Positions 23,177 through 60,600 of a DNA stretch of 64,000 nucleotides are shown one piece after another; the first letter of the stretch is position 1; each line of letters opens with the position of its first letter. The notes beneath the pieces are model-generated. The model had not been told where the DNA came from and did no database searches. It saw only the letters and a list, made by a program, of their open reading frames with translations. Source of the DNA: Ascidia mentula (Eukaryota > Chordata > Ascidiacea > Phlebobranchia > Ascidiidae); NCBI GenBank assembly GCA_947561715.1, contig OX387205.1:14203001-14267000 (forward strand), read 5' to 3'. The position numbers and the translations under genes were made by a program.

Positions 23177-25430
23177 TAAATATACCTATGATGACACGGA
23201 ACAACTGCAAGAATTCGAATAATACTACGTAATGTGACTGTAGTGCAAAGGAGGGGCGATTGGGGCGACTAAATACATTAGAAAACAAATATATTATAAC
23301 ACTGAAAATAAAACACAGCAGTTGAAGTCAAAATTTTTTGAATAATTTATTTTCGTTCATTACACTGGTGTGGTAATTGTCTGGCGCATAGCTATCTCCT
23401 CAACTAGCTCCCAGTTTGCTTGACAAAGAATTTTGGATTATTCCCCTACAGAAAATGTCTGGATCCTCTGTGGTATTAACTCTCACTTCTTTCCTGCCAT
23501 AAAGTCAATTAAATTTCCCTTACCATTAGGATGCACCGCGCATAAAAGTAAGTAAAAAAACATAAATGCAGTTTTAACGTTGTTTCCACAGCAAACATAT
23601 CGTTGTTAAAGTCTGACAACATTTCAAGAAAGCTGTGTCATGCGAGCTGCTTTACCGCGACTTTTCGGAACACTTTACTTGGCGGTCCTTGTCACAGCAA
23701 AATAAAACACACTAGTTTAGAAGGGAAAATCGTGTTTTATACTTCTGGTGAAACTGCTTTCTTTTCGTATAGCTGAAGTTTCAAGCAGCTGTCTTCAGTT
23801 CTCCCAACAGTTGCTGAAGAGGAAACTCAACTTTGTCAACTTTTGAACGAGCCAAGTCACAATAATATCACGCTGTGCTTACGGATGCAGAGAGTGCGCC
23901 GACGGAAAGTGACAAAAAATCGATGAATGGGACGTATTGTTGGCGGTGAAACAATGTCATTTGCACGAAACAGATCCATTTCCTTTTTATCGACGATGCC
24001 ACGATGTCTTTTGGTGACAAATGGGTTTTAATTCAAGTTCTTCCCTAATGCGCGCGAAAGGTATTTTATATCCATCTCATGCGGCGCGGTTGAGTAAATT
24101 TGTCAAAAGGTTTACAAATATTTTAAAAAGAGACGTAAGACTGGTTCCTTAATTGTGCCAGGATCTATCCCTTCTAAGATACGTGGGCTATTTATTATTT
24201 AAACACTCTTAAACTTTACCTTTGTGATAAAACCAGCCAATGCAAAAAAAAACAAAAATTCTTGACTAGTGTTTAAAAAGATTTCTGCCAAAATGTCCAA
24301 TATAACGGTAAAGTATTTAAATCTTGTTTTTTTTTGTTAAGTGACATAGAGCGACATGCGGGATTAAAACACTGCATCAACAATAGTTGATTGAAGCGTT
24401 CCATTGAACGTTCCAGCAGCTCAGGAAGCGGCCACGTCGAGTGCATATAAAAGACTGCAGCAATGTTTGTGAATATTGTATCGGTAACTAGAAACAAAAT
24501 GGTTTACTTTGAAGTTAATTGTGGTTCTGGATATTCATGGTGGGTGAGGATGAGCTGAGCTTCCAGTGTTTTTGCTATAGTTTTTAGAAAACTAACCATA
24601 TCGAGCGAACAATAATGAAACTCTTCGACCTTGGTTTATTTGTGTATGCGGTTTTATGGATCACAAACCTAAACAAACGGTGGTTTCAAACAGCAGAATT
24701 GTTTGTCGAAAATATTTTTACTTTTTTACTTATGAACAGTTACAAGACCTATAAGACTATTTTGAAGATTAAAATAAATCCACTAAATCGCACTAACCAT
24801 TGTGAAGTTTTTTACCAGGGACTTTCCCTGATGGGAAAATTCGGCTTATATATTATTTTCAGTTGTTTGGGAAGTTGTACTTCCGCTTTAGTTGGTTGTA
24901 ATTTTGTTACGTCACCGGAAAAATGCGGTTTATAAACTTTAGATACGATGTAACAAATTACGAATTCATCAAAGACTTGCCTGTGTACTTTAATGCAATT
25001 GATGTGTAAATGTAATAATGGTTCAAACTTTGCATCAAAAATGGGTCTGATATAATAATGCTACAGATAAAGATTGGTTGAAAATGCATTGTTTTGAAAC
25101 ACACCGCCCGCCTGGTGTTTTTGTGCGGCCTGTGATGCACTTTTCAATAAAAGTCATGTGGCTCAGAAATGATAAAGCGAAGCAGGATATGAATAGCCTA
25201 CTTGTGCCAAGCACATAAACGAAGATTTATGTTTTGTTTAGACTGTACTATAAGTTGATTTTTTTTAAGCAAACCAAATTATAATTCCATTATTGCTTTG
25301 TTTCGTAAATTTATTGTGAAAAGTTATGTTATACAAAGTGGCATGCAAAATAATTTCTAACGGAAATATTTTTATGATATAAACAAACTATGCATTCTGC
25401 AGGTGTTTCACAAAAAACACTGTGTATAAA
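23177..25430. other. Intergenic region between RGS gene 2 and the serpin array
   Basis: AT-rich. Upstream exons and promoter of RGS gene 2 may lie in its first part. The longest open frame (24615-24935, plus) encodes a hydrophobic-patched 106 residues with no recognisable motif and no splice or repeat support, so it is not called a gene. No tRNA or large repeat recognised. Confidence 0.45.
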
Positions 25431-26564
25431 ATGGCGAAACCACTAAGAGAAGGAAATTTAAACTTTTGCTTGGACTTATACAAGCTTCTGTCGAAAGGTG
25501 AAGAAAATCTCTTCTTCTCTCCTTACAGCATTTCAGCTGTGATGTCCATGGTCTTGTTGGGTTCAAAGGAAAATACTGCAAAGCAATTAAAGGAAGGTCT
25601 TGGATTTGGAGAAATTTGTGATTCAAATCTGCATGAAGAAATTGGAAAAGTTTTAAAAGGAGTCAAAGCAATTAAAGGCAATGTTGTGTTAAATGTTGCC
25701 AACAAGTTATTTCCAGAAATTTCTTTTAACTTGGAATCCGATTTTCAAGAGAAATGCATGAAGTTTTATGGTGCTGATATCGAGGGTTTGGATTTTTCTG
25801 GAAATCCTGATAAATCTCGACTGATGATTAATGATTGGGCTCAAAGAGAAACAAAAGATAAAATTAAAAACCTTCTTCCTGATGGCTCCATTAATGGTCT
25901 CACCAAATTGGTTTTGGCAAATGCTGTTTATTTTAAAGGAGATTGGAAGGACAAGTTTAACATCAAATCAACTAAAAAGTCTGAGTTCTTTGTCAACCCC
26001 CAAAAATCAGTTTCAGTTGACATGATGTTTCGATCTGGAAAATACAACATTGCCTTCGACATGGATGTGAAAGCACAGATTGTTGAACTTCCATACCATG
26101 GTGACAGTGTGTCCATGATAATTATTCTTCCAAGTGACAAATTCGGTTTGGCTGAAGTAGAAAAAAGTGTGAACACAGAATGGCTTCTCAAGATGATTCA
26201 CCAGTTTTCAAATGAAAAAATAGAATTATCTCTTCCAAGAATGAAATTGGAACAAGAATTTGACTTGGTGTCCACAATGCAAAAGATGGGAATTAAGGAT
26301 GTTTTTAATGATAGTGAAGCCAACTTAAAAGGAATGTCTCCACAAGAAGGTTTATTTGTGTCAAAGGTTGCACACAAAGCCTTTATAGAAGTTAATGAAG
26401 AAGGGTCTGAAGCAGCAGCAGCTACTGCAGCGGTTATGATGTTGTGTGCAGCTGTAATGCCAGTTCGAGTTACCTGTGATCATCCATTCATGTTCTTTTT
26501 GATGCACAAACCATCACAGACAATTCTCTTCTGTGGTCGTCTAAACTCTCTGTCACCACAATAA
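25431..26564 (+). CDS. Serpin A (clade-B-like, intracellular type), single exon
   Basis: 377 aa in one uninterrupted exon. Serpin landmarks: NAVYFKGDW near residue 160, the breach/hinge EEGSEAAAAT at about 323-332, CDHPFMFFLMHKP and the final strand FCGRLNS. The start MAKPLREGNLNF has no signal peptide, as in ov-serpins (clade B) of the cytosol and nucleus. The Ala-rich hinge predicts an inhibitory serpin that traps proteases. Counting from the hinge, P1 is Cys339, as in human SERPINB1. The annotated ATG follows a splice acceptor (CTGCAG, 25397-25402) by 28 bases. Bases from 26002 onward are identical to serpin B, whereas the 5' half differs. The stop codon is directly followed by a foldback element. 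Confidence 0.93.
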   Translation: MAKPLREGNLNFCLDLYKLLSKGEENLFFSPYSISAVMSMVLLGSKENTAKQLKEGLGFGEICDSNLHEEIGKVLKGVKAIKGNVVLNVANKLFPEISFNLESDFQEKCMKFYGADIEGLDFSGNPDKSRLMINDWAQRETKDKIKNLLPDGSINGLTKLVLANAVYFKGDWKDKFNIKSTKKSEFFVNPQKSVSVDMMFRSGKYNIAFDMDVKAQIVELPYHGDSVSMIIILPSDKFGLAEVEKSVNTEWLLKMIHQFSNEKIELSLPRMKLEQEFDLVSTMQKMGIKDVFNDSEANLKGMSPQEGLFVSKVAHKAFIEVNEEGSEAAAATAAVMMLCAAVMPVRVTCDHPFMFFLMHKPSQTILFCGRLNSLSPQ

Positions 26565-26574
26565 TGCATGAAGT

Positions 26575-26878
26575 TGGCGAGCTGCAGACAGGTTGTGTAC
26601 ACGCACTGTTTCGAACTGTCAGGTCTCATCATTGCAGCTGTTAAAGTTGCACTGTGCTAGCTTCTACACCAGCAGGCACACTATTTTCCATATAGGGTAC
26701 CCAACAGATCGACGTTAACCGGAAAGGTACCACAAAGTGGAAAATAGTGTGTCTGCTGGTGTAGAAGCTAGCACAGTGCCACTTCAACAGCTGCCCTGAT
26801 GAGACATGACAGGTCGAAACAGTGCATGTACACAACCTGTCTGCAGCTCTCCAATATTATGGCTTTTTTGCACATACA
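26575..26878 (+). mobile_element. Foldback (inverted-repeat) insertion behind serpin A
   Basis: Arms 26574-26690 and 26738-26854 (117 bases each) are near-perfect reverse complements around a 47-base loop. Ends read TTGGCGAGCTGCAGACAGG and its complement. The 11-bp direct repeat ATGCATGAAGT flanks the insert at 26564-26574 and 26879-26889, and serpin E has one uninterrupted copy (ATGTATCAAGT, 36585-36595) in the matching place, so this is an insertion with target-site duplication. A 24-base unpaired tail (26855-26878) precedes the right repeat. No coding capacity, so it is non-autonomous: either a foldback MITE or a Penelope/retrozyme-like repeat pair. Confidence 0.85.
26796..26829 (+). ncRNA. 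Hammerhead-ribozyme-like core in right arm of foldback element
   Basis: CTGATGA (26796-26802), stem II GAC/GTC (26803-26805 with 26813-26815) closed by a 7-base loop, then GAAA (26816-26819). Next comes a possible 3-bp stem III ACA/TGT (26819-26821 with 26827-26829) and A26830 at the cleavage position. These are all the invariant core bases of a hammerhead. Against activity: the bases next to the core (AGCTGCC and CACAACC) do not pair as a stem I, and the opposite arm of the hairpin would compete. The left arm holds a mutated copy on the minus strand (ATGATGA, 26632-26608). Confidence 0.4.
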
Positions 26879-27511
26879 ATGCATGAAGTATTTTGATTGA
26901 ATAAGTTCACAAACCATGTAGTGCTTGAACTAAAATTTTTGTCGCACTTTTTGTGTTAACTATGCTTACTTTTGTCTTGCTCTGATTATTTTTTATTGAA
27001 ATTTACAAATGTGCGATTTGACAAGATTCTTGTAATACACATGCATTACATTTTCAAAGTATTTAAACTGTTTTTCTTTTCCAATCAATTGAAATTTTTT
27101 GACCGACTCAATTTGTTACAAGCGATGTAAACCATGTTCCTGCTTTAAACTGGTTTTAGTTTCGGAGTTACATTTTTTGCATCGTTTTGTTTTAGTAGTT
27201 TGTTTTTTGTAGCTGAGTTTTTAACTTGACATTTAAACATTTGGTAGAAAACTGAGTGTATGTGATGAGTTTTATATTTATTTGTTTTCTTTGCACTGGA
27301 GTGTGTGTAAATGATTTGAAAGTTGTTGACTTGTAACCATTGCAAAGTTCTTGTAAATTATAATATTTCCTGTGTAATGTTTTGATGCCTTTTGTGCAAA
27401 TATGATTTAAATGACATTATGACACAGGCACTTTGTTGCAATTTTTTCATTTGTGTTGACAAAAACCATGCATTTTTTAGGTCTTTTCCATGTGATTAGT
27501 TGTGCATAAAA

Positions 27512-28645
27512 ATGGCGAAACCACTAAGAGAAGGAAACTTAAACTTTTGTTTGGACTTATACAAGCTTCTGTCGAAAGGTGAAGAAAATCTCTTCTTCTC
27601 TCCTTACAGCATTTCAGCTGTGATGTCCATGGTCTTGTTGGGATCCAAGGAAAATACTACAAAGCAATTAAAGGAAGGTCTTGGATTTGGAGAAATTTCT
27701 GACTCAAATCTTCATGAAGATATTGGAAAAGTTTTGGAAGGAGTCAAATCAATCAAAGGCAATGTTGTGTTAAATATTGCCAACAAGTTATTTCCAGAAG
27801 TTTCTTTTGATTTGGAATCTGATTTTAAAGAGAAATGCATGAAGTTTTATGATGCTGATATCGAGGGTTTGGATTTTGCTGGAAATCCTGATAAATCTCG
27901 ACTGATGATAAACAATTGGGCACAAAAGGAAACAAAAGATAAAATTAAGAACCTTCTTCCTGATGGCTCAATTAATGGTCTCACCAAATTGGTTTTGGCA
28001 AATGCTGTTTATTTTAAAGGAGATTGGAAGGACAAGTTTAACATCAAAGCAACCAGAAAGTCTGAGTTCTTTGTCAACCCCAAAAAATCAGTTTCAGTTG
28101 ACATGATGTTTCGATCTGGAAAATACAACATTGCCTTCGACATGGATGTGAAAGCACAGATTGTTGAACTTCCATACCATGGTGACAGTGTGTCCATGAT
28201 AATTATTCTTCCAAGTGACAAATTCGGTTTGGCTGAAGTAGAAAAAAGTGTGAACACAGAATGGCTTCTCAAGATGATTCACCAGTTTTCAAATGAAAAA
28301 ATAGAATTATCTCTTCCAAGAATGAAATTGGAACAAGAATTTGACTTGGTGTCCACAATGCAAAAGATGGGAATTAAGGATGTTTTTAATGATAGTGAAG
28401 CCAACTTAAAAGGAATGTCTCCACAAGAAGGTTTATTTGTGTCAAAGGTTGCACACAAAGCCTTTATAGAAGTTAATGAAGAAGGGTCTGAAGCAGCAGC
28501 AGCTACTGCAGCGGTTATGATGTTGTGTGCAGCTGTAATGCCAGTTCGAGTTACCTGTGATCATCCATTCATGTTCTTTTTGATGCACAAACCATCACAG
28601 ACAATTCTCTTCTGTGGTCGTCTAAACTCTCTGTCACCACAATAA
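27512..28645 (+). CDS. Serpin B (clade-B-like), single exon
   Basis: 377 aa, no signal peptide. It has the same landmarks as serpin A, and its sequence from base 28083 to the stop is identical to A, including the reactive loop with predicted P1 Cys339. The N-terminal third instead matches serpin C, so B is a join of a C-like 5' end and an A-like 3' end. A splice acceptor (TTTTTTAG, ending 27480) lies 31 bases before the ATG. If transcribed into the spacer, its 3' UTR would carry the second foldback element. Expected role: inhibitory, intracellular serine or cysteine protease trap; the target is unknown. Confidence 0.92.
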   Translation: MAKPLREGNLNFCLDLYKLLSKGEENLFFSPYSISAVMSMVLLGSKENTTKQLKEGLGFGEISDSNLHEDIGKVLEGVKSIKGNVVLNIANKLFPEVSFDLESDFKEKCMKFYDADIEGLDFAGNPDKSRLMINNWAQKETKDKIKNLLPDGSINGLTKLVLANAVYFKGDWKDKFNIKATRKSEFFVNPKKSVSVDMMFRSGKYNIAFDMDVKAQIVELPYHGDSVSMIIILPSDKFGLAEVEKSVNTEWLLKMIHQFSNEKIELSLPRMKLEQEFDLVSTMQKMGIKDVFNDSEANLKGMSPQEGLFVSKVAHKAFIEVNEEGSEAAAATAAVMMLCAAVMPVRVTCDHPFMFFLMHKPSQTILFCGRLNSLSPQ

Positions 28646-29726
28646 TGCATGAAGTTGGCGAGCTGCAGACAGGTTGTGTACACGCACTGTTTCGAACTGT
28701 CAGGTCTCATCATTGCAGCTGTTAAAGTTGCACTGTGCTAGCTTCTACACCAGCAGGCACACTATTTTCCATATAGGGTACCCAACAGATCGACGTTAAC
28801 CGGAAAGGTACCACAAAGTGGAAAATAGTGTGTCTGCTGGTGTAGAAGCTAGCACAGTGCCACTTCAACAGCTGCCCTGATGAGACATGACAGGTCGAAA
28901 CAGTGCATGTACACAACCTGTCTGCAGCTCTCCAATATTATGGCTTTTTTGCACATACAATGCATGAAGTATTTTGATTGAATAAGTTCACAAACCATGT
29001 AGTGCTTGAACTAAAATTTTTGTCGCACTTTTTGTGTTAACTATGCTTACTTTTGTCTTGCTCTGATTATTTTTTATTGAAATTTACAAATGTGCGATTT
29101 GACAAGATTCTTGTAATACACATGCATTACATTTTCAAAGTATTTAAACTGTTTTTCTTTTCCAATCAATTGAAATTTTTTGACCGACTCAATTTGTTAC
29201 AAGCGATGTAAACCATGTTCCTGCTTTAAACTGGTTTTAGTTTCGGAGTTACATTTTTTGCATCGTTTTGTTTTAGTAGTTTGTTTTTTGTAGCTGAGTT
29301 TTTAACTTGACATTTAAACATTTGGTAGAAAACTGAGTGTATGTGATGAGTTTTATATTTATTTGTTTTCTTTGCACTGGAGTGTGTGTAAATGATTTGA
29401 AAGTTGTTGACTTGTAACCATTGCAAAGTTCTTGTAAATTATAATATTTCCTGTGTAATGTTTTGATGCCTTTTGTGCAAATATGATTTAAATGACATTA
29501 TGACACAGGCACTTTGTTGCAATTTTTTCATTTGTGTTGACAAAAACCATGCATTTTTTAGGTCTTTTCCATGTGATTAGTTGTGCATAAAAATGGCGAA
29601 ACCACTAAGAGAAGGAAACTTAAACTTTTGTTTGGACTTATACAAGCTTCTGTCGAAAGGTGAAGAAAATCTCTTCTTCTCTCCTTACAGCATTTCAGCT
29701 GTGATGTCCATGGTCTTGTTGGGATC
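28083..29726 (+). repeat. Tandem duplication, right copy (2,081-bp period)
   Basis: Partner of 26002-27645; no mismatch was seen between its ends. It covers the 3' half of serpin B, the second foldback element, the spacer and the first 134 bases of serpin C. Confidence 0.85.
28656..28959 (+). mobile_element. Foldback insertion behind serpin B
   Basis: Copy of the insertion at 26575-26878 created by the 2,081-bp tandem duplication rather than by a second insertion, since flanks and target duplication are the same. The hammerhead-like core lies at 28877-28910. Serpins C, D, E, F and G have no such element behind their stop codons. Confidence 0.85.
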
Positions 29727-33996: not shown

Positions 33997-35457
33997 TTTA
34001 CATGTATTTGCGACGCAAGATTTCAAACTATTTAACTTGGCCTTTTTGGTACCAATTTTGACAAGTCTTATCTTGGATTATACAGTTTTGTGCATTGTCA
34101 TGTATGAATTCTAATGAATTATGTTTTGTTCTGGTTATAATTTTTTCAACTTATCCAGAGAGCATTGTTATGTAATAATATACATGTAAAGCTTGTGTAA
34201 TTTATGCCAAAACAAAACTGTATATTCGTATCTTTCTAAAAAAAACTCAATTAAAAAATGACTAACTAATCTTGTATAAATTTAATTGTGATTTTGATTT
34301 AAACATTATTTTAACTGTTTTCACTTGATCTAATGATTGCTATTGTTTCTAAATATCTTATGGTTTTCTATTTTGGGCTTCCCAAAGTAGTGGGTGTAAT
34401 TTCTGTGTTTTAAGTTTTTGTCAAATTTTCCTTCTTTAAATCTTTGAACACAGTGTAATTGCAGAGCATTTTTTATGGGATGTGCATTGCTGTTACAACT
34501 CACATAAAACAAATTATGCTTTGACAGTTACATTTATGTTGTGATTGTTCTTTGCCACAGAACATCTTCAATCTGTTCATTTTAAATACATCTGTGCCAT
34601 CTCCTCATTATAACTTGTCGCAATTGCAACATACATGTGTTCTAATTTCCCTGCAATAAAATGTAGAAATTGAGTAAGTCTTGGTTGTAAAGGCATAAAT
34701 ACATTTTAATGGATGAAAATATATACAGGGGTTAGAACTGTTTGCTGGTTAAGCAAGCCAGTGTTCTTAATATTCGTTGTGTTATTGCGATTATTTGGAC
34801 GTGGTACAGGAAATTGCTTGATCAGTAATTCCGGCAAACATAACTCAAGGCAGGAAGTGACATAATAAAGTCAAAGTTTTGGAAATCCCGATGAGAGACA
34901 GGTCTTAAAAGTCAGGGGAATTATAAGTCTTGATCATGGAACGGTTCTAATTAGGGAATTTGAACACCACCCAAAATGTTGGACTGCTTTTTGCACAACT
35001 GGAGGCTATGTTGTTTGTTCTCTGCCAAGTGTCAACCATAAACGTGAGTGACATAATGGCTGACTTTAACTTTCAACATTTTGTGAGTTTAGTCCTACTG
35101 TAGTGGAGTAATATTTAAAAACTAATCTGCACTAGACCTCTGAGGATGGTGTACCAGTTTTTGAATAAAATTACTGCTGCCAAGTAACATTAAATTTTAA
35201 GAAGTAGCAAATGTGAATATAATAATTGCAATGTGTTGATTACGATGTAAAAATAAATTCTTTGACCAACCCAACATTCAATGCAAAATTTTAATTCTGT
35301 GTGTTTGTCATGTAATTTAATAACATTTAGTTTTGCAGCAAATAATAGCTGTACGTGTTATCATACTGGATTGTATTGGATGTTAGATTGTAGCAGTAAC
35401 AAATTAATGGTGTGCGTTATGTGTTAGGTATTTTCTGTCTGATAAACAAGTTTCAAA
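33997..35457. repeat. Spacer between serpins D and E
   Basis: The first ~200 bases are related to the start of the serpin C and F 3' flanks. From about 34530 the sequence aligns with 36720-38033 and, from about 34900, with 40913-42323, so each of serpins E, F and G is preceded by a copy of one upstream block. Shared strings include GACAGGAAGTGACATAAT-type sequence near 34850 and CTGACTTTAACTTTCAACAT at 35059-35078. This copy lacks about 120 bases present in the other two (for example 37307-37427). Acceptor at 35426-35427. No gene seen. Confidence 0.6.
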
Positions 35458-36585
35458 ATGGCAGAGGCTGTGAAAGAAGGGAATATGAAGTTTTCCTTGG
35501 ATTTGTACAAGCTTTTAACAAAGAATGAAGAAAATCTCTTCTTCTCTCCTTTCAGCATTTCGGTTGTGATGTCCATGGTCTTGTTGGGTTCGAAGGAAAA
35601 AACTGCAAAGCAAATAAAAAAATGTCTTGGATTTGAGGGCATTAATGAGAAAAATCTTCATGTGGAAATTGGAAAAGTTTTAAAAGGAATTAAATCAATT
35701 GAGGGCGATGTGGTGTTGAATATTGCCAACAAGTTATTTCCAGAAGTATCTTTGAAGTTAAAATCTGAATTTAAGAAGAAATGCATGAAGTTTTATGGAG
35801 CCAATATTGAGGGTTTGGATTTTGCTGGAAATCCTGATAAATCCCGACTGATGATTAACAATTGGGCTCAAAAAGAAACAAAAGATAAAATCAAAAATCT
35901 TCTTCCTGATGGCTCAATTAATGATCTCACCAAATTGGTTTTGGCAAATGCTGTTTATTTTAAAGGAGATTGGAAGGAAAAATTTAACATCAAGTCAACT
36001 AGAGAGTCTGAGTTCTTTGTCAACCCCCAAAAATCAGTTTCAGTTGACATGATGTTTCGATCTGGAAAATACGACATTGCCTTCGACATGGATGTGAAGG
36101 CACAGGTTGTTGGGCTTCCATACCATGGTGACAGTGTGTTCATGATAATTATTCTTCCAAGTGACAAGTTTGGTTTGGCTGAACTTGAGAGAAGTGTGAA
36201 CACAGAATGGCTTCTCAAGAAGATTCACCAGTTTTCAAATCAAAAAATAGAATTATCTCTTCCAAGAATGAAATTGGAGCAAGAATTTGACTTGGTGTCC
36301 ACAATGCAAAAGATGGGAATTAAAGATATCTTTAATGAAATTGATGCCGACTTGAATGAAATATCAACAAAAGAAGGCTTATATGTTTCTAATATGGCAC
36401 ATAAAGCAGTCATAGAGGTAAATGAGCAGGGGTCTGAAGCTGCTGCTGCAACAGGAGCACAATGCATACGAAAAAGCTATTGCATACCTATCAGAATAAC
36501 TTGTGATCATCCATTCATGTTCTTCTTAATGCACACATCATCACAAACAATGCTTTTCTGTGGTCGTCTAAACTCGCCGATATAA
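35458..36585 (+). CDS. Serpin E (clade-B-like), predicted P1 lysine
   Basis: 375 aa, single exon, ATG 30 bases after an acceptor (GTGTTAG). The N-terminal half (MAEAVKEGNMKF, KKCLGFEGINEKNL) defines a subtype shared with F and G, and the middle is nearly identical to F. Its C-terminal ~75 residues are unique. The hinge EQGSEAAAAT is followed by GAQCIRK then SYCIPIR, giving Lys339 at P1 with Arg at P2, so a trypsin-like or furin-like target is plausible. No signal peptide. The sequence just after the stop is the uninterrupted version of the site where the foldback element sits behind A and B. Confidence 0.93.
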   Translation: MAEAVKEGNMKFSLDLYKLLTKNEENLFFSPFSISVVMSMVLLGSKEKTAKQIKKCLGFEGINEKNLHVEIGKVLKGIKSIEGDVVLNIANKLFPEVSLKLKSEFKKKCMKFYGANIEGLDFAGNPDKSRLMINNWAQKETKDKIKNLLPDGSINDLTKLVLANAVYFKGDWKEKFNIKSTRESEFFVNPQKSVSVDMMFRSGKYDIAFDMDVKAQVVGLPYHGDSVFMIIILPSDKFGLAELERSVNTEWLLKKIHQFSNQKIELSLPRMKLEQEFDLVSTMQKMGIKDIFNEIDADLNEISTKEGLYVSNMAHKAVIEVNEQGSEAAAATGAQCIRKSYCIPIRITCDHPFMFFLMHTSSQTMLFCGRLNSPI

Positions 36586-43445: not shown

Positions 43446-44601
43446 TAGTCAAGGGGCATTGTTCCGTCAGAATTATAGAAAAATTTATACGAAAAAAAGG
43501 TTTTGAGGAAAACTGAAATGTGTTTAAGAATGTGGTTGTACATTTATACATTCACTCCAAACTTTGTTCTGGGTTTCCACTGTGTCCATAAGGTCTCATT
43601 GTAACAAAATATCTGTTAAAGAGTAACACAGATGTACTAAGGTGAGCTCTAGCTTTCCATTTAAGAAAATGTCAAAAAAATAAATTGATACATGATCTAA
43701 ACAGAAGTGGATGGGAAATTTGTTTGTATGTTTATTTGCCACCTTGCTGTGTTTTAATGCACTGTTTAACATGTTCTACATCATCCACAGGACACTGCTG
43801 CATCTAAATCAGCATGTGTTGTGAAATTTTAATGTTTGTAATGGTATCTGAATTAAACCATTTACATATATATGTTGTACAGATATGTGACACATATAAG
43901 TTGTATAATAATAATAATCACTCAAAACAGTTATCACATATTGCTAAAACACCTTATCCCCTGGCAGTCACAAATCAGCCTTATGACTTAATTATTTTCT
44001 TTGTCATGTTTCTTGACCTGTTCATATTTTTTCCGTACAGCTTTGTTTAGTGCTGTAGTTTTGTGCCCTCCAGGTTGTGGTACTTCCCCAAGTATATCTT
44101 CCTTGTTGTTCCATCTCCAATCATACTGCATACCCCTTTCACTTTTTACTTGAAATTATTGCCAGAATAAAAGTACTGTGTTTTAATTGTGATAACCTTT
44201 TTTAGGCAATTGAGTCATTGCTTTGATCATTCTGGTACAACATTTCTTTATAAGACATGACAGACATGTATTAGTTTATTGTCAAGTTAAAAGGTTTCTG
44301 ATTTTTAACCAAATGCAATTCAAATTCAAAACATAATTTTTTATGTAAAGGGAATGATAAAAATAACTGTATTGCCAAGGTAGAGTTCTAAATTTACAAT
44401 TGTAAGAATGTCTGCACTTCTAGCAGAAACTCTACTAAGTTTGGTGATGTTTCATCTGTTAAATCCTTTATTTACCCAGCAGTTTAACAACTAAGCAATT
44501 GCGTTGCCTTTACTTTCTGGACAGTTTTATTATCATTGATTTGTTTGTTTTGCAGAAACCTGTGCTAAGCTGTACGTTAGTAACTGTTTAACCATTTTGC
44601 C
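43446..44601. other. Spacer between the two serpin subfamilies
   Basis: From about 43500 this spacer matches the upstream flanks of the other two H-type genes (about 46380-47270 and 49370-50377), for example around 43740-43800 and 44480-44560. The open frame at 43814-44050 is not conserved in the other copies. Acceptor TTTGCAG at 44549-44555. No gene seen. Confidence 0.5.
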
Positions 44602-45744
44602 ATGGACTCCTTGAAGATTGGAAGTGTCTCATTTGCCTTAGCTCTGCATAACTGCCATTTACGTGACAAAAACAACATATTTTTGTCGCCCTACAGTGTG
44701 TACACTTCCCTTTGTATGGTGTTAAATGGAGCTGCTGAATCAACTCAGATTCAGCTAAGAAAAGCTCTTAACATTGGTAGTGAAATTCCAATCGATCAAT
44801 TGTGTGAAGTTAACTTGAAGTTGATGGATGAAATAAACAATGCCAGGGAATCCATCACTCTGGAAGTAGCAAACAATGTGTTTCCAGATACTTCCTTTAC
44901 ACTTTGTGATGAGTTTATTGAGGCTTGCAAGAAATATTTCAAGTGCGATGTGATTGGACTGGATTTTCAATCCAATGCAGCAGATGCTAGAAACACAATT
45001 AACCAGTGGGTTGCTGAGAGAACTAGAGATAAAATAAAAGATTTGCTTTCCCTTGGTGATTTGCAAGGAGCAAAACTGGTTCTTGTCAATGCCGTTTACT
45101 TCAAAGGGGATTGGCTGAACCAGTTTGATTCAGGCAAGACGGAAGCAGGAAGATTTCAGATCAACCTTTTTCGGTCTGCATCTGTTCAAATGATGAAGAC
45201 ATTCAGTTATCAGCGATATCTGAAAGACAAAAGCTTTGGTGTTAAGGTGTTAGAGATTCCATACAGTGGAGATACTGTGTCTATGATTATCATTTTGCCA
45301 ATATCAAAGTTTGGATTAAACTCAGTTATGGAGAAAATGACTGGAACAAAATTGCTTGATCTTGTCTCAAGGATTGATAGCTGTAAGGTTATAGTTGCTG
45401 TTCCAAAATTTAAGTTGGAAGAAAAGTACGAATTGACCAATGCTTTACACAGACTTGGCATCAAAGACATGTTTACCACAAAGGCCGACTTAAGTGGAAT
45501 TTCTCCTGGCGGTGACCTTTTTGTATCTCAGGTTGTTCACCAATCCTATATAGATGTAAATGAAGAGGGTTCAGAAGCTGCTGCTGCAACTGCTGTTATT
45601 GGATTAGCAAAAGGATTCGGATTCGGTCGCCCACCAAAACCTCGGACATTTATTTGTGATCACCCTTTTTTCTTCATGATCTATCACAAGCCCAGCCAGG
45701 CTATCCTATTTTGTGGCAGCTACAGAAAACCACCAAAAGTCTAA
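44602..45744 (+). CDS. Serpin H (second subfamily), single exon
   Basis: 380 aa, start MDSLKIGSVSFALALHN, no signal peptide. Shares the serpin framework with A-G (NAVYFKGDW, CDHPFFFMIYHKPSQ, LFCGSY) but is only distantly similar, forming a separate subfamily with I and J. The hinge EEGSEAAAAT (about 321-330) is canonical. The loop is about five residues longer than in A: AVIGLAK then GFGFGRPPKPRTF. Counting from the hinge, P1 is Lys337. The C-terminus GSYRKPPKV is unusually basic for a serpin. ATG lies 46 bases after an acceptor, and AATAAA follows the stop by 14 bases (45759). Probably an inhibitor of trypsin-like proteases. Confidence 0.92.
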   Translation: MDSLKIGSVSFALALHNCHLRDKNNIFLSPYSVYTSLCMVLNGAAESTQIQLRKALNIGSEIPIDQLCEVNLKLMDEINNARESITLEVANNVFPDTSFTLCDEFIEACKKYFKCDVIGLDFQSNAADARNTINQWVAERTRDKIKDLLSLGDLQGAKLVLVNAVYFKGDWLNQFDSGKTEAGRFQINLFRSASVQMMKTFSYQRYLKDKSFGVKVLEIPYSGDTVSMIIILPISKFGLNSVMEKMTGTKLLDLVSRIDSCKVIVAVPKFKLEEKYELTNALHRLGIKDMFTTKADLSGISPGGDLFVSQVVHQSYIDVNEEGSEAAAATAVIGLAKGFGFGRPPKPRTFICDHPFFFMIYHKPSQAILFCGSYRKPPKV

Positions 45745-57600: not shown

Positions 57601-60600
57601 TATTTAATTAAAAAAATACCCGATAATCTGTCTCTAAACCGGAACTCCCACCTGTCAATTTTGCTTCTGTAATCATCTTCTTTGGATTGCGTCATCAGTT
57701 CGTTCGTTCTCAGCATCGACTCGAGATCGGAAGCTTTCTGAGCCAAAGACTGAACGTGATCGTCCAACCTTCCTTTTTCATCTGAAGTACGTTGGTATCT
57801 ACAAGGAATGGATTAAATATTACATAAAGTGTGCATTTCGATAAAACCATGTACAAGCAAACACGTCAAAGCGTTGCAGACAGTGTACACTGTTTCGACC
57901 TATGAGGTATTATCCGTAAAGAATAGTCTTTGCCTGGCTAGCCGTCAGTCATAAGTTGCATTAAAACAGTGGCACAGTATGTAATTTTACAAAAGCAGTC
58001 AATGTGTAAAGGATGCACATGAAAGCATTTCAGCTTCCTTTTCAACATTACAAGAAAACGCACTTACTGTTTCTGACGAAGAGATTTGCGGTTTTAAGCA
58101 CACGTCTTTTTTTTCTCTTACGCTATCACATTGCACGCGCGCGGTTAATGGAGATTCATTGAACACCACCCACCTATCTCTCCATGCATCAGCCTGGGAT
58201 CTCGCTTCCTCCAACTTGCGTTCCCGATCTTCCAGACGACCTTCCAACCTCTTCATTTCATCCTCGGCCTTCTCCGCTCTGTTTCTCTGGGATCTCGTCG
58301 CTTTCTTGAGTCCTTCTTTCTCTCGCGCAATCATTTCTCGTTCATTCCGCGCGACTGCTGTGAGTTCTTCCGCTTCACGTCGCGTCGTCTCGCTCTCGCG
58401 TTCCATGTTCTGCCATAGAAATATAAAAACATGCAACTTTTCGTGGACAACAATCTGGATATTTTTGCTTTATGATCGGAATATTCCAGTGACACTGGAG
58501 ATGATATCAGGACGAATGTCCTATAAATGTATTCTAAAGAAAGGTAAAAATGTCATCTTGGAGAAATGTGGATATCAAGTTACATATTTCCAAGATGTTT
58601 TCCTTATTCAAACCTGTCTCACTCACAAACCAAAAGATCTGACCGAATATTTTTATTATCCACAACTTTGCACAATCAGGCAACAAAAACACAGGGTTTA
58701 CTGCTTGGCGCACGTGCTTCGTCGCAATCAATCTCTTCGCACGATGCTGCACTTATTCTCATGCGGTTTCGTATGCACGCAGTGCAGAATTAACTGCTGT
58801 GTTTCAAGTGGGCCAATAATCTAAACCTCTTTACTATGCCGTGGTATTTTCGGCGTATGAAACAAGCAACACATTTTCTGTTTTGGAAGATTTAGCCAAT
58901 AAGCAACGCACTTTGCAGCTACTTTTGAATCTCAGTCGTCACCGGGTTCGCAATTACGCACACAATTTTAAAAGTTTAACCATTCTGAGCATCTTTCTCC
59001 TGTGGTTTTGTAAAACATCAAACACCTGAGTGTAAAGAGACTGGCCCATATTGTTATTAACACTGTCATGTTTAAATAAGACGTTTCGACAAAAACTTAT
59101 GCCATCATCAGTTTGACTGACGCGATTGGTGTAGCTCCATCATTATAAGGAGCTGACCTGACCGACGTCACAGATATGGCTCGCGCGGGTGGTGACGTCA
59201 TTTTGCTATCGGCCACACACCACTGAGAGGCGGAAAATGCGCAGTAAGCGACGCAAAACGCAAAATACACATCAAACACCTGATACAATGATTACCATGT
59301 ATGTGTTTGTCAGATCGTGCAGTGACGTTGCAATCTGTGATAGAAGTTTATGTTTGGCTGGAAACGGAACATTCGCGATCGGACCTGAAGATATCAAATG
59401 ATATTAATCAGAATTGCAAAAACATTTAATTTTTTGTTGGTACTTTTTGGTTGTTGAGCTTCTTGGGGTAAAGTTCGGACCAGTGATTTTTCCCAACTGC
59501 TGCGTTCTCGTGTTGCCGATCGCGCAAACTTATGCTGTTTTGATTTCCGATGGTCTTCCAGCTGGGTAACTCGCCATCCCGTTGAAGTTGCTTTTTTCCC
59601 TTCCGCAAACTTATTTTTCAACTTTGCTTCCCGGCAAATATAGCAATGGGCAAGACCTGATGTTTGGTCATAACGAAGCCAGGAGAACATGCAGAGCCAC
59701 GCTTTTCTGAACGAACGTTTAGCTGACCTGGATGTGTATCAAAAATTGCTATACATTACTTTGATATTTTTGAGTCAATCGTGTTTTAGTGAACTCCATA
59801 CACTGCTACACACTAATAAGCCTCATCCTATAAACTGAAACAGTGGCTGTTTGCAGATCACTTAACAATATTTTTAATTGTACTTACGGTTTTTTATCGT
59901 TTAAACTTCCTTGTGATCCGGAACTTTCGGTTGTTATATTTCCCACCTCGTTATATCGACTACGCCCACTTACACCACTTGCCTGGTGCTGAGATAAAAA
60001 ACCAAACAAGGTAGACTGGATTATGTCTGACTCGACTTTAACTCTTTTTCTAGGCTGTTCTTCGAGCTCCATTATATTTTCCACGCAGTATTTTTGCTAT
60101 ACGATTACACGGCTTTGGTCACAAAAATATATCCACGCAGTGCAAGATTTCGAGCTGTTTGTATGCAGAATCACGCCTGTATGCCTAAGTTGCGAGTGAG
60201 CAACTGTGTCTGGACTGTTCACCAACAATGGACGATAATTCACATCCCGCTGGGCGTCGTGGACTGACGGGGGTCGAAAAAAAATGTAACGGAAATCGCG
60301 ATAACGATGTCGATGAGCAAAGCAATACAAAGTCTACTTGCACGATGCCCCTTGGGAGGTCACGTTCGACGTTATCTCCAATCCGCTTCCTATTCGGACA
60401 TTGTGTCCGAAGCATATTTTATTCTCCGACATTTAATGTCCAGCATAAAAGGTTTTAATTCCCGTACAGTACGCAGTTTTTCCTTACCTTGAGCTGAACG
60501 TGGAGTCGGTTATTTTCCATCTCCTTCGCCCTCAGTTCACGTTGCAGATGGGCTCGGGTCGCCTCCACAGACTTGTTCAGTTCGTTGAGAGTCCGGGCGT

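Follow-up and report, generated by a model that had tools for sequence, protein, structure and literature searches.

A foldback behind two serpin genes of Ascidia mentula as a putative head-to-head retrozyme with Penelope-type insertion ends

Introduction

Metazoan non-LTR retrozymes are short tandem repeats of 170-400 bp with less than 50% G+C which carry a type I hammerhead ribozyme. They are present in many copies, occur as dimers to larger multimers and are associated with target duplications of more than 4 bp (Cervera and de la Pena 2020, PMC7229834). Penelope elements have been proposed to move retrozymes and even to be their ancestors, and LINEs are the other candidate named in print (PMC7229834; PMC11722881). 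The argument for Penelope mobilisation draws on shared type I hammerheads, tandem copies and co-existence (PMC7229834).

Penelope-like elements contain a frame of 800-900 codons. Typically, they show head-to-head inverted copies with an optional ‘tail’ at one end, AT-rich targets, short duplications, tandem copies and a type I hammerhead (PMC3846280, PMC11167929). In Adineta, one of the inverted pLTRs bears a 31-bp tail, and the duplications measure 8-10 bp (PMC3846280). The Penelope enzyme from Anolis acts on both strands, each of which it cuts and extends, and it uses two adjacent internal start sites; in vitro, the strands do not differ in start site. The tail resulting from two start sites was called unique to PLEs in the same 2024 paper (PMC11167929).

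Our literature search found no paper joining retrozymes with head-to-head copies or twin priming, and none on target-primed reverse transcription with a hammerhead and circular RNA. Hammerheads within mRNAs are a further point of comparison: discontinuous hammerheads in Clec2 3′ UTRs were reportedly first described by Martick in 2008.

Here we analyse a window of 64,000 nucleotides from the ascidian Ascidia mentula (GenBank assembly GCA_947561715.1, contig OX387205.1, positions 14,203,001 to 14,267,000, forward strand), in which a foldback insertion lies behind tandem serpin genes. Judging from its sequence, this foldback would derive from a metazoan non-LTR retrozyme moved by Penelope-type machinery and would be an old head-to-head copy that has been truncated, a reading to which we assign a probability of about three in four. 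The Penelope role itself has already been proposed in print; the new contribution is the anatomy of the insertion ends.

The insertion behind the serpin genes

The window contains a tandem serpin cluster. The two frames scanned, 25383-26564 and 44584-45744, match Pfam Serpin with E-values of 5.6e-121 and 3.4e-103. The stop codon of serpin A, TAA, occupies 26562-26564, and 10 nt separate it from insertion A (26575-26877, plus strand, 303 bp). In this insertion, a minus-strand fragment (26575-26690) is joined head-to-head to a plus-strand fragment (26691-26877), and a 12-bp target-site duplication, AATGCATGAAGT, flanks it as a direct repeat at 26563-26574 and 26878-26889. Extension by a repeat finder gives inverted arms of 131 nt each (26560-26690 and 26738-26868) which are 89% complementary. 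Insertion A is likely located in the serpin 3′ UTR; among five poly(A)-signal-like words sought over 26565-27500, the sole match is AATACA at 27034.

Insertion B (28656-28958, plus strand) is identical to insertion A at an offset of 2081, with target-site duplications at 28644-28655 and 28959-28970. The serpin A and B stretches show zero mismatches over 26002-27500, insertion included. This identity suggests one insertion followed by duplication or conversion and not two independent insertions: the 3′ half of the serpin, together with the insertion, may have been converted or recently duplicated after the insertion event. When 25416-27500 is aligned with 27497-29581, the differences between the two genes are confined to the part upstream of 26002. 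Furthermore, an empty site is found in the window. When the two flanks are joined, the 3′ end of a sister serpin (35446-36585) can be aligned across the junction with a score of 81, versus 29-40 for the 3′ regions of four other serpins.

The hammerhead motif

The initial annotation, made from the letters alone, had noticed a hammerhead-like core on the serpin-sense strand close to the stop codon and had pointed out that serpin B carries it as well. Both observations hold, and so do the elements named for the core: the words CTGATGA (26796-26802) and GAAA (26816-26819), a 3-bp stem II (26803-26805 with 26813-26815) and a short stem III of 4 bp (26819-26822 with 26837-26840). The extent given for it, 26796-26829, is too short, since the full motif of the right arm covers 26786-26850 on the plus strand. 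Stem I had been described as not evident; it is formed by AGCUGC (26789-26794) and GCAGCU (26843-26848), with a single unpaired position, C26795.U26842, beside the predicted cut. Cleavage had been placed near 26830 and is now predicted after C26841, the last base of the GUC at 26839-26841. In this right-arm copy, stems I and II have each lost one pair. In addition, the left arm contains a second hammerhead, overlooked earlier, on its minus strand (26578-26642), where the core C3 is changed to A. The corresponding motifs of insertion B, located with the covariance model described below, are at 28659-28723 (minus strand) and 28867-28931 (plus strand).

The two-word match alone is weak evidence. 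CTGATGA followed by GAAA after 6-30 nt occurs 12 times in the window versus 1.67 times expected from shuffles (shuffle maximum 6), but six of these 12 occurrences are one recurring stretch within serpin reading frames. The full hammerhead motif is not a chance match, since a covariance model built from 12 copies outside the window matches both arms of both insertions. The left arm scores 80.5 bits (E 9e-20) and the right arm 74.1 bits (E 5.4e-18), these E-values being rough. A decayed fifth hammerhead of the same family, its core mostly gone, is detected at 57870-57924 on the minus strand (27.5 bits, E 3.8e-5); no inverted repeat is present around this relic within 57700-58100.

A scan with the Rfam hammerhead families had been suggested as a check, the lack of a match counting against the motif. 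The scan of the window indeed gives no match at the gathering threshold. However, copies from array L021 (see the next section) fail equally in spite of their perfect core: they reach just 24.9-28.8 bits, whereas the cut-offs are 48.5 and 56.3, so that a negative outcome is uninformative here. The minus-strand arm has its best Rfam match with RAGATH-1-hammerhead (RF03152; 30.0 bits, E 0.025 over 2.8 kb), yet this lies below the gathering score of 56.3, as do the 28.3-30.1 bits of the same family on many array copies, of which it is likewise the best match (eight loci tested). For RF00163, 73 of the 27659 genome candidates were scored, with 0 matches; the control went unmatched as well, and this outcome is uninformative. 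A scan of IMG/VR with the core pattern yielded 0 matches.

Energy folding does not favour the hammerhead: both for the window arm and for a perfect array unit, another structure is returned as the best. In the circular 291-nt unit, stems II and III form and stem I is absent. Folding programs omit the tertiary contacts of hammerheads, and these folds do not decide activity. Two-sided compensatory changes are seen in 0 of 15 helix pairs, no better than in shuffles; sliding the helix partners by 1-3 columns leads to far worse pairing, in a set of sequences too similar for this comparison to discriminate.

The retrozyme family in the genome

The genome searched comprises 195.8 Mb in 79 contigs. 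With the insertion as query, at least 161 matches are found, 40 candidates out of 1564 having been scored. If up to 2 mismatches are allowed, the core pattern gives 2533 matches (1281 forward, 1252 reverse), versus 0 for the reversed core pattern used as a control. In array L021, seven full minus-strand units stand head-to-head with four full plus-strand units, and two minus-strand and two plus-strand partial pieces are located at the join and the end. Nearly all these units are exactly 291 bp long and identical; one minus-strand unit has 293 bp and 99.3% identity.

The unit length of 291 bp, the G+C content of 47.8% and the high copy number fall within the ranges published for non-LTR retrozymes. 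CTGATGA and GTC are present in 81 of 84 distinct ribozyme sequences collected by a regular expression over the sampled loci and the window, which itself demanded TGATGA, GAAA, [TCG]TC and some pairing. In 16 chosen sequences, 94.6% of the stem I cells show pairing; the hammerhead is of type I, with stem I open, and most copies retain an intact core. Target duplications with a score of at least 10 are found in 37 of 68 groups versus 7 of 199 shuffled pairings, a count that includes some in-element matches later removed. The accepted duplications measure 10-16 bp, longer than the 4 bp above which those of described retrozymes lie.

As far as sequence can tell, the family thus fits the published description of metazoan non-LTR retrozymes, with which it shares the type I hammerhead, short tandem repeats, many copies, the duplications and arrangements from dimers to larger multimers. 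The full type I fold and the genome-wide family bear out the hammerhead identity and the earlier hint at retrozymes and Penelope-like elements. A difference is that about half of the sampled Ascidia insertions are head-to-head with two unlike preferred outer ends, a feature not described in the consulted parts of PMC7229834. In contrast to Penelope-like elements, the unit of 291 nt could not accommodate a frame of 800-900 codons, and its stem III measures 4 bp. Being too short for one long RT/GIY-YIG frame, the element itself is, on the evidence of its unit, not a Penelope element.

Five further loci (L089, L090 and L092-L094) contain hammerhead copies with a shorter stem III inside paralogous gene copies which are 85-92% alike. 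A second arm is found in four of these five foldbacks, which are apparently intronic. By eye, we take the host genes to be TRPM-like. The L089 foldback resembles miRNA precursor families, below their cut-offs.

Anatomy of the insertion ends

Unit positions are numbered from the predicted cut, u1 being the first base past GUC, and the ends of the element are defined by the flanking duplication. The loci surveyed, all from one genome, are not a random sample: they comprise the best matches, the first 30 pattern matches and ten loci added later. Twelve loci were dropped by eye as paralogous or repeated (L029, L041, L090, L093, L094, L100, L102, L106-L109 and L116). Before paralogue clustering, 67 groups (66/67 loci) include 33 head-to-head, 34 direct and 0 tail-to-tail insertions. 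Flank similarity removed five more groups, which leaves 31 of the 33 head-to-head and 31 of the 34 direct ones and does not change the end counts. The 62 independent insertions are therefore head-to-head in 31 cases, direct in 31 and tail-to-tail in none. The first 100 core matches listed include 11 pairs of neighbours on opposite strands less than 700 bp apart; all 11 run minus-then-plus, some of these places being paralogous.

At a duplication score of at least 10 (34 groups), outer 3′-type ends fall at u29-41 in 27 of 52 cases, at u2-14 in 20 and elsewhere in five, within zones fixed after viewing the first loci; the lower bound of the second zone was shifted from 3 to 2 during the analysis, with one locus reassigned. 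Together, these two preferred sites, about 26 nt apart, account for 47 of the 52 ends. Among the ten later loci, 10 of 12 3′-type ends (score at least 10) lie inside these zones. The 5′ ends are scattered, and only 1 of 16 is within u29-41 or u2-14 at the same score. No acceptable duplication was found at score 10 in 33 of the 67 groups. A rule against in-element matches excluded five groups with a score of at least 10 (L043, L051, L095, L105 and L112), of which L051 and L112 had shown one end of each kind.

Among 18 inverted insertions (score at least 10), 14 have one end of each kind; the remaining four combine an end elsewhere with u29-41 (one) or with u2-14 (three). Two like outer ends occur in 0 of 18, and in 1 of 22 at the looser score of at least 8. 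If ends were chosen independently, 14 unlike pairs out of 14 would have a probability of about 5e-5 by our own arithmetic. Insertion A, with u12 on the left and u37 on the right, also has one end at each preferred site. Direct insertions carry the u29-41 end in 12 of 16 cases. The inner ends are scattered. Of 32 junctions, 19 are either blunt or show an overlap of 1-4 nt, while 13 contain 1-42 extra nt, and in 31 of 32 the two inner ends are at unlike unit positions. An inverted retrozyme at L037:1-1201 has both outer ends at u39, and its flanks beyond the element are mutually inverted copies.

Head-to-head copies with two alternative outer 3′ ends, one of them with a ‘tail’, are characteristic of Penelope-type insertions, and the end pattern of the sampled insertions resembles this signature. 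The targets are AT-rich as well, with a G+C content of 23.6% in the duplications of 30 insertions versus 37.4% in the window, a sample which includes AT repeats such as the target duplication of L021 and the later-rejected L105 match. The spacing of the ends differs, 30-40 nt being reported for Penelope-like elements (PMC3846280, PMC11167929) versus about 26 nt here. Since the two outer-end sites are located beyond the position of ribozyme cleavage, the template would not be a linear monomer ending there, which implies circular or uncut RNA.

Candidate mobilising machinery

Among 382 GIY-YIG candidates in the genome, 150 were scored, which gives at least 121 matches. Their open frames reach 892 aa, and we infer them to be Penelope elements. 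In the 121 listed matches, opposite-strand neighbours within 6 kb are head-to-head in 17 of 17 cases, and a hand-picked set of 47 agrees. At C67:6134028-6146916, five GIY-YIG matches with frames of 559-892 aa follow a 2870-bp period with one head-to-head flip. This tandem arrangement resembles the retrozyme array L021.

LINEs also generate duplications of similar size, 5′ truncation and inverted copies. The retrozyme could hence have been moved by non-LTR machinery through ordinary twin priming and not by a Penelope-like enzyme, and at least 150 RVT_1 frames are present in the genome. We consider this unlikely. In ordinary twin priming, the inverted segment begins at variable internal sites, whereas both outer ends are fixed here. 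Furthermore, no RVT_1 head-to-head pair within 10 kb is found among the first 101 of 150 listed matches, where the neighbours are one tail-to-tail and three same-strand pairs; this is a weak control, the entries being single domains.

A less probable origin of the inverted copies is the self-priming, or snap-back, of one cDNA, which was proposed with an antisense template for the inverted repeats of Penelope (PMC3846280). It predicts two like outer ends, the combination that is absent or nearly so at either score threshold, and the unlike inner ends at almost all junctions also speak against it.

The serpin 3′ UTR

A self-cleaving motif in two tandem serpin 3′ UTRs had been put forward as a new layer of regulation. 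The right-arm ribozyme would then cut the serpin mRNA after 26841 and lower expression, as was proposed for Clec2, where hammerheads are reported in 3′ UTRs (PMC4041007). The sense orientation, the position 10 nt past the stop codon and the intact core CUGAUGA/GAAA/GUC are compatible with such a switch. We nevertheless regard it as very improbable, and the regulatory claim is not sustained: the element is a genome-wide repeat, and its ribozyme is predicted to be buried by the other arm. In folds of the transcript ending at successive stops, most ribozyme bases pair with the earlier arm at every stop tested (12/14, 27/31, 49/54 and 55/60), and the complete insertion can adopt the ribozyme pairs only at a cost of about 83 kcal/mol. 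Even if the left arm is omitted, the predicted ribozyme fold is 8 kcal/mol above the best one, although folding programs disregard tertiary contacts and do not return the hammerhead for a perfect array unit either. In addition, the right arm is short of one pair each in stems I and II, and the left arm has lost the core C3. In Clec2, the ribozyme consists of two parts and belongs to the UTR of the gene family itself (PMC4041007), whereas here it resides in a transposon copy whose second arm masks it in the predicted fold.

Because it is paired to the other arm in these models, the ribozyme of the right arm is probably silent behind the serpins, and their mRNA is not expected to be cleaved. The message could still be affected in other ways by a long double-stranded 3′ UTR.

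Lastly, a foldback or MITE-like DNA transposon, with the hammerhead words in its terminal inverted repeats by chance, would explain the long complementary arms and the direct repeat on both sides, but it is excluded by the direct copies (31 of 62 insertions, with scattered 5′ ends), the unlike outer ends of the inverted copies (both kinds present in 14 of 18, 0 alike), the variable duplication length of 10-16 bp and the 291-bp tandem arrays.

Model of insertion and implications

Analogy with Penelope-like elements supports the hypothesis that retrozymes are moved by Penelope-type machinery. In the proposed mechanism, the type I hammerhead would cut tandem transcripts into 291-nt monomers, and an RNA circle or an uncut multimer would serve as template for reverse transcription by a Penelope-like enzyme. 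The enzyme would cut both target strands and start at two internal sites of the RNA, about 6-12 nt and about 33-38 nt beyond the position of ribozyme cleavage. One copy would be primed by each of the cut strands, the copies would meet head-to-head, and repair would leave the duplication. Two separate starts, one per cut strand, would explain both the unlike outer ends and the head-to-head join.

More tentatively, and with slightly less than even confidence, we suggest that two Penelope subunits load two primers on one RNA circle and use one each of the neighbouring start sites. Both copies would run round the circle before meeting head-to-head. If true, such an arrangement would jointly explain the tandem arrays, the inversion and the one-sided tail, perhaps also for Penelope elements themselves, for which the head-to-head GIY-YIG array on C67 with its 2870-bp period offers a comparison.

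These results bear on the question of which enzyme spreads animal retrozymes. The quantified end signature makes the Penelope proposal testable in other species which carry retrozymes, and it can also be checked with the published in vitro Penelope assay.
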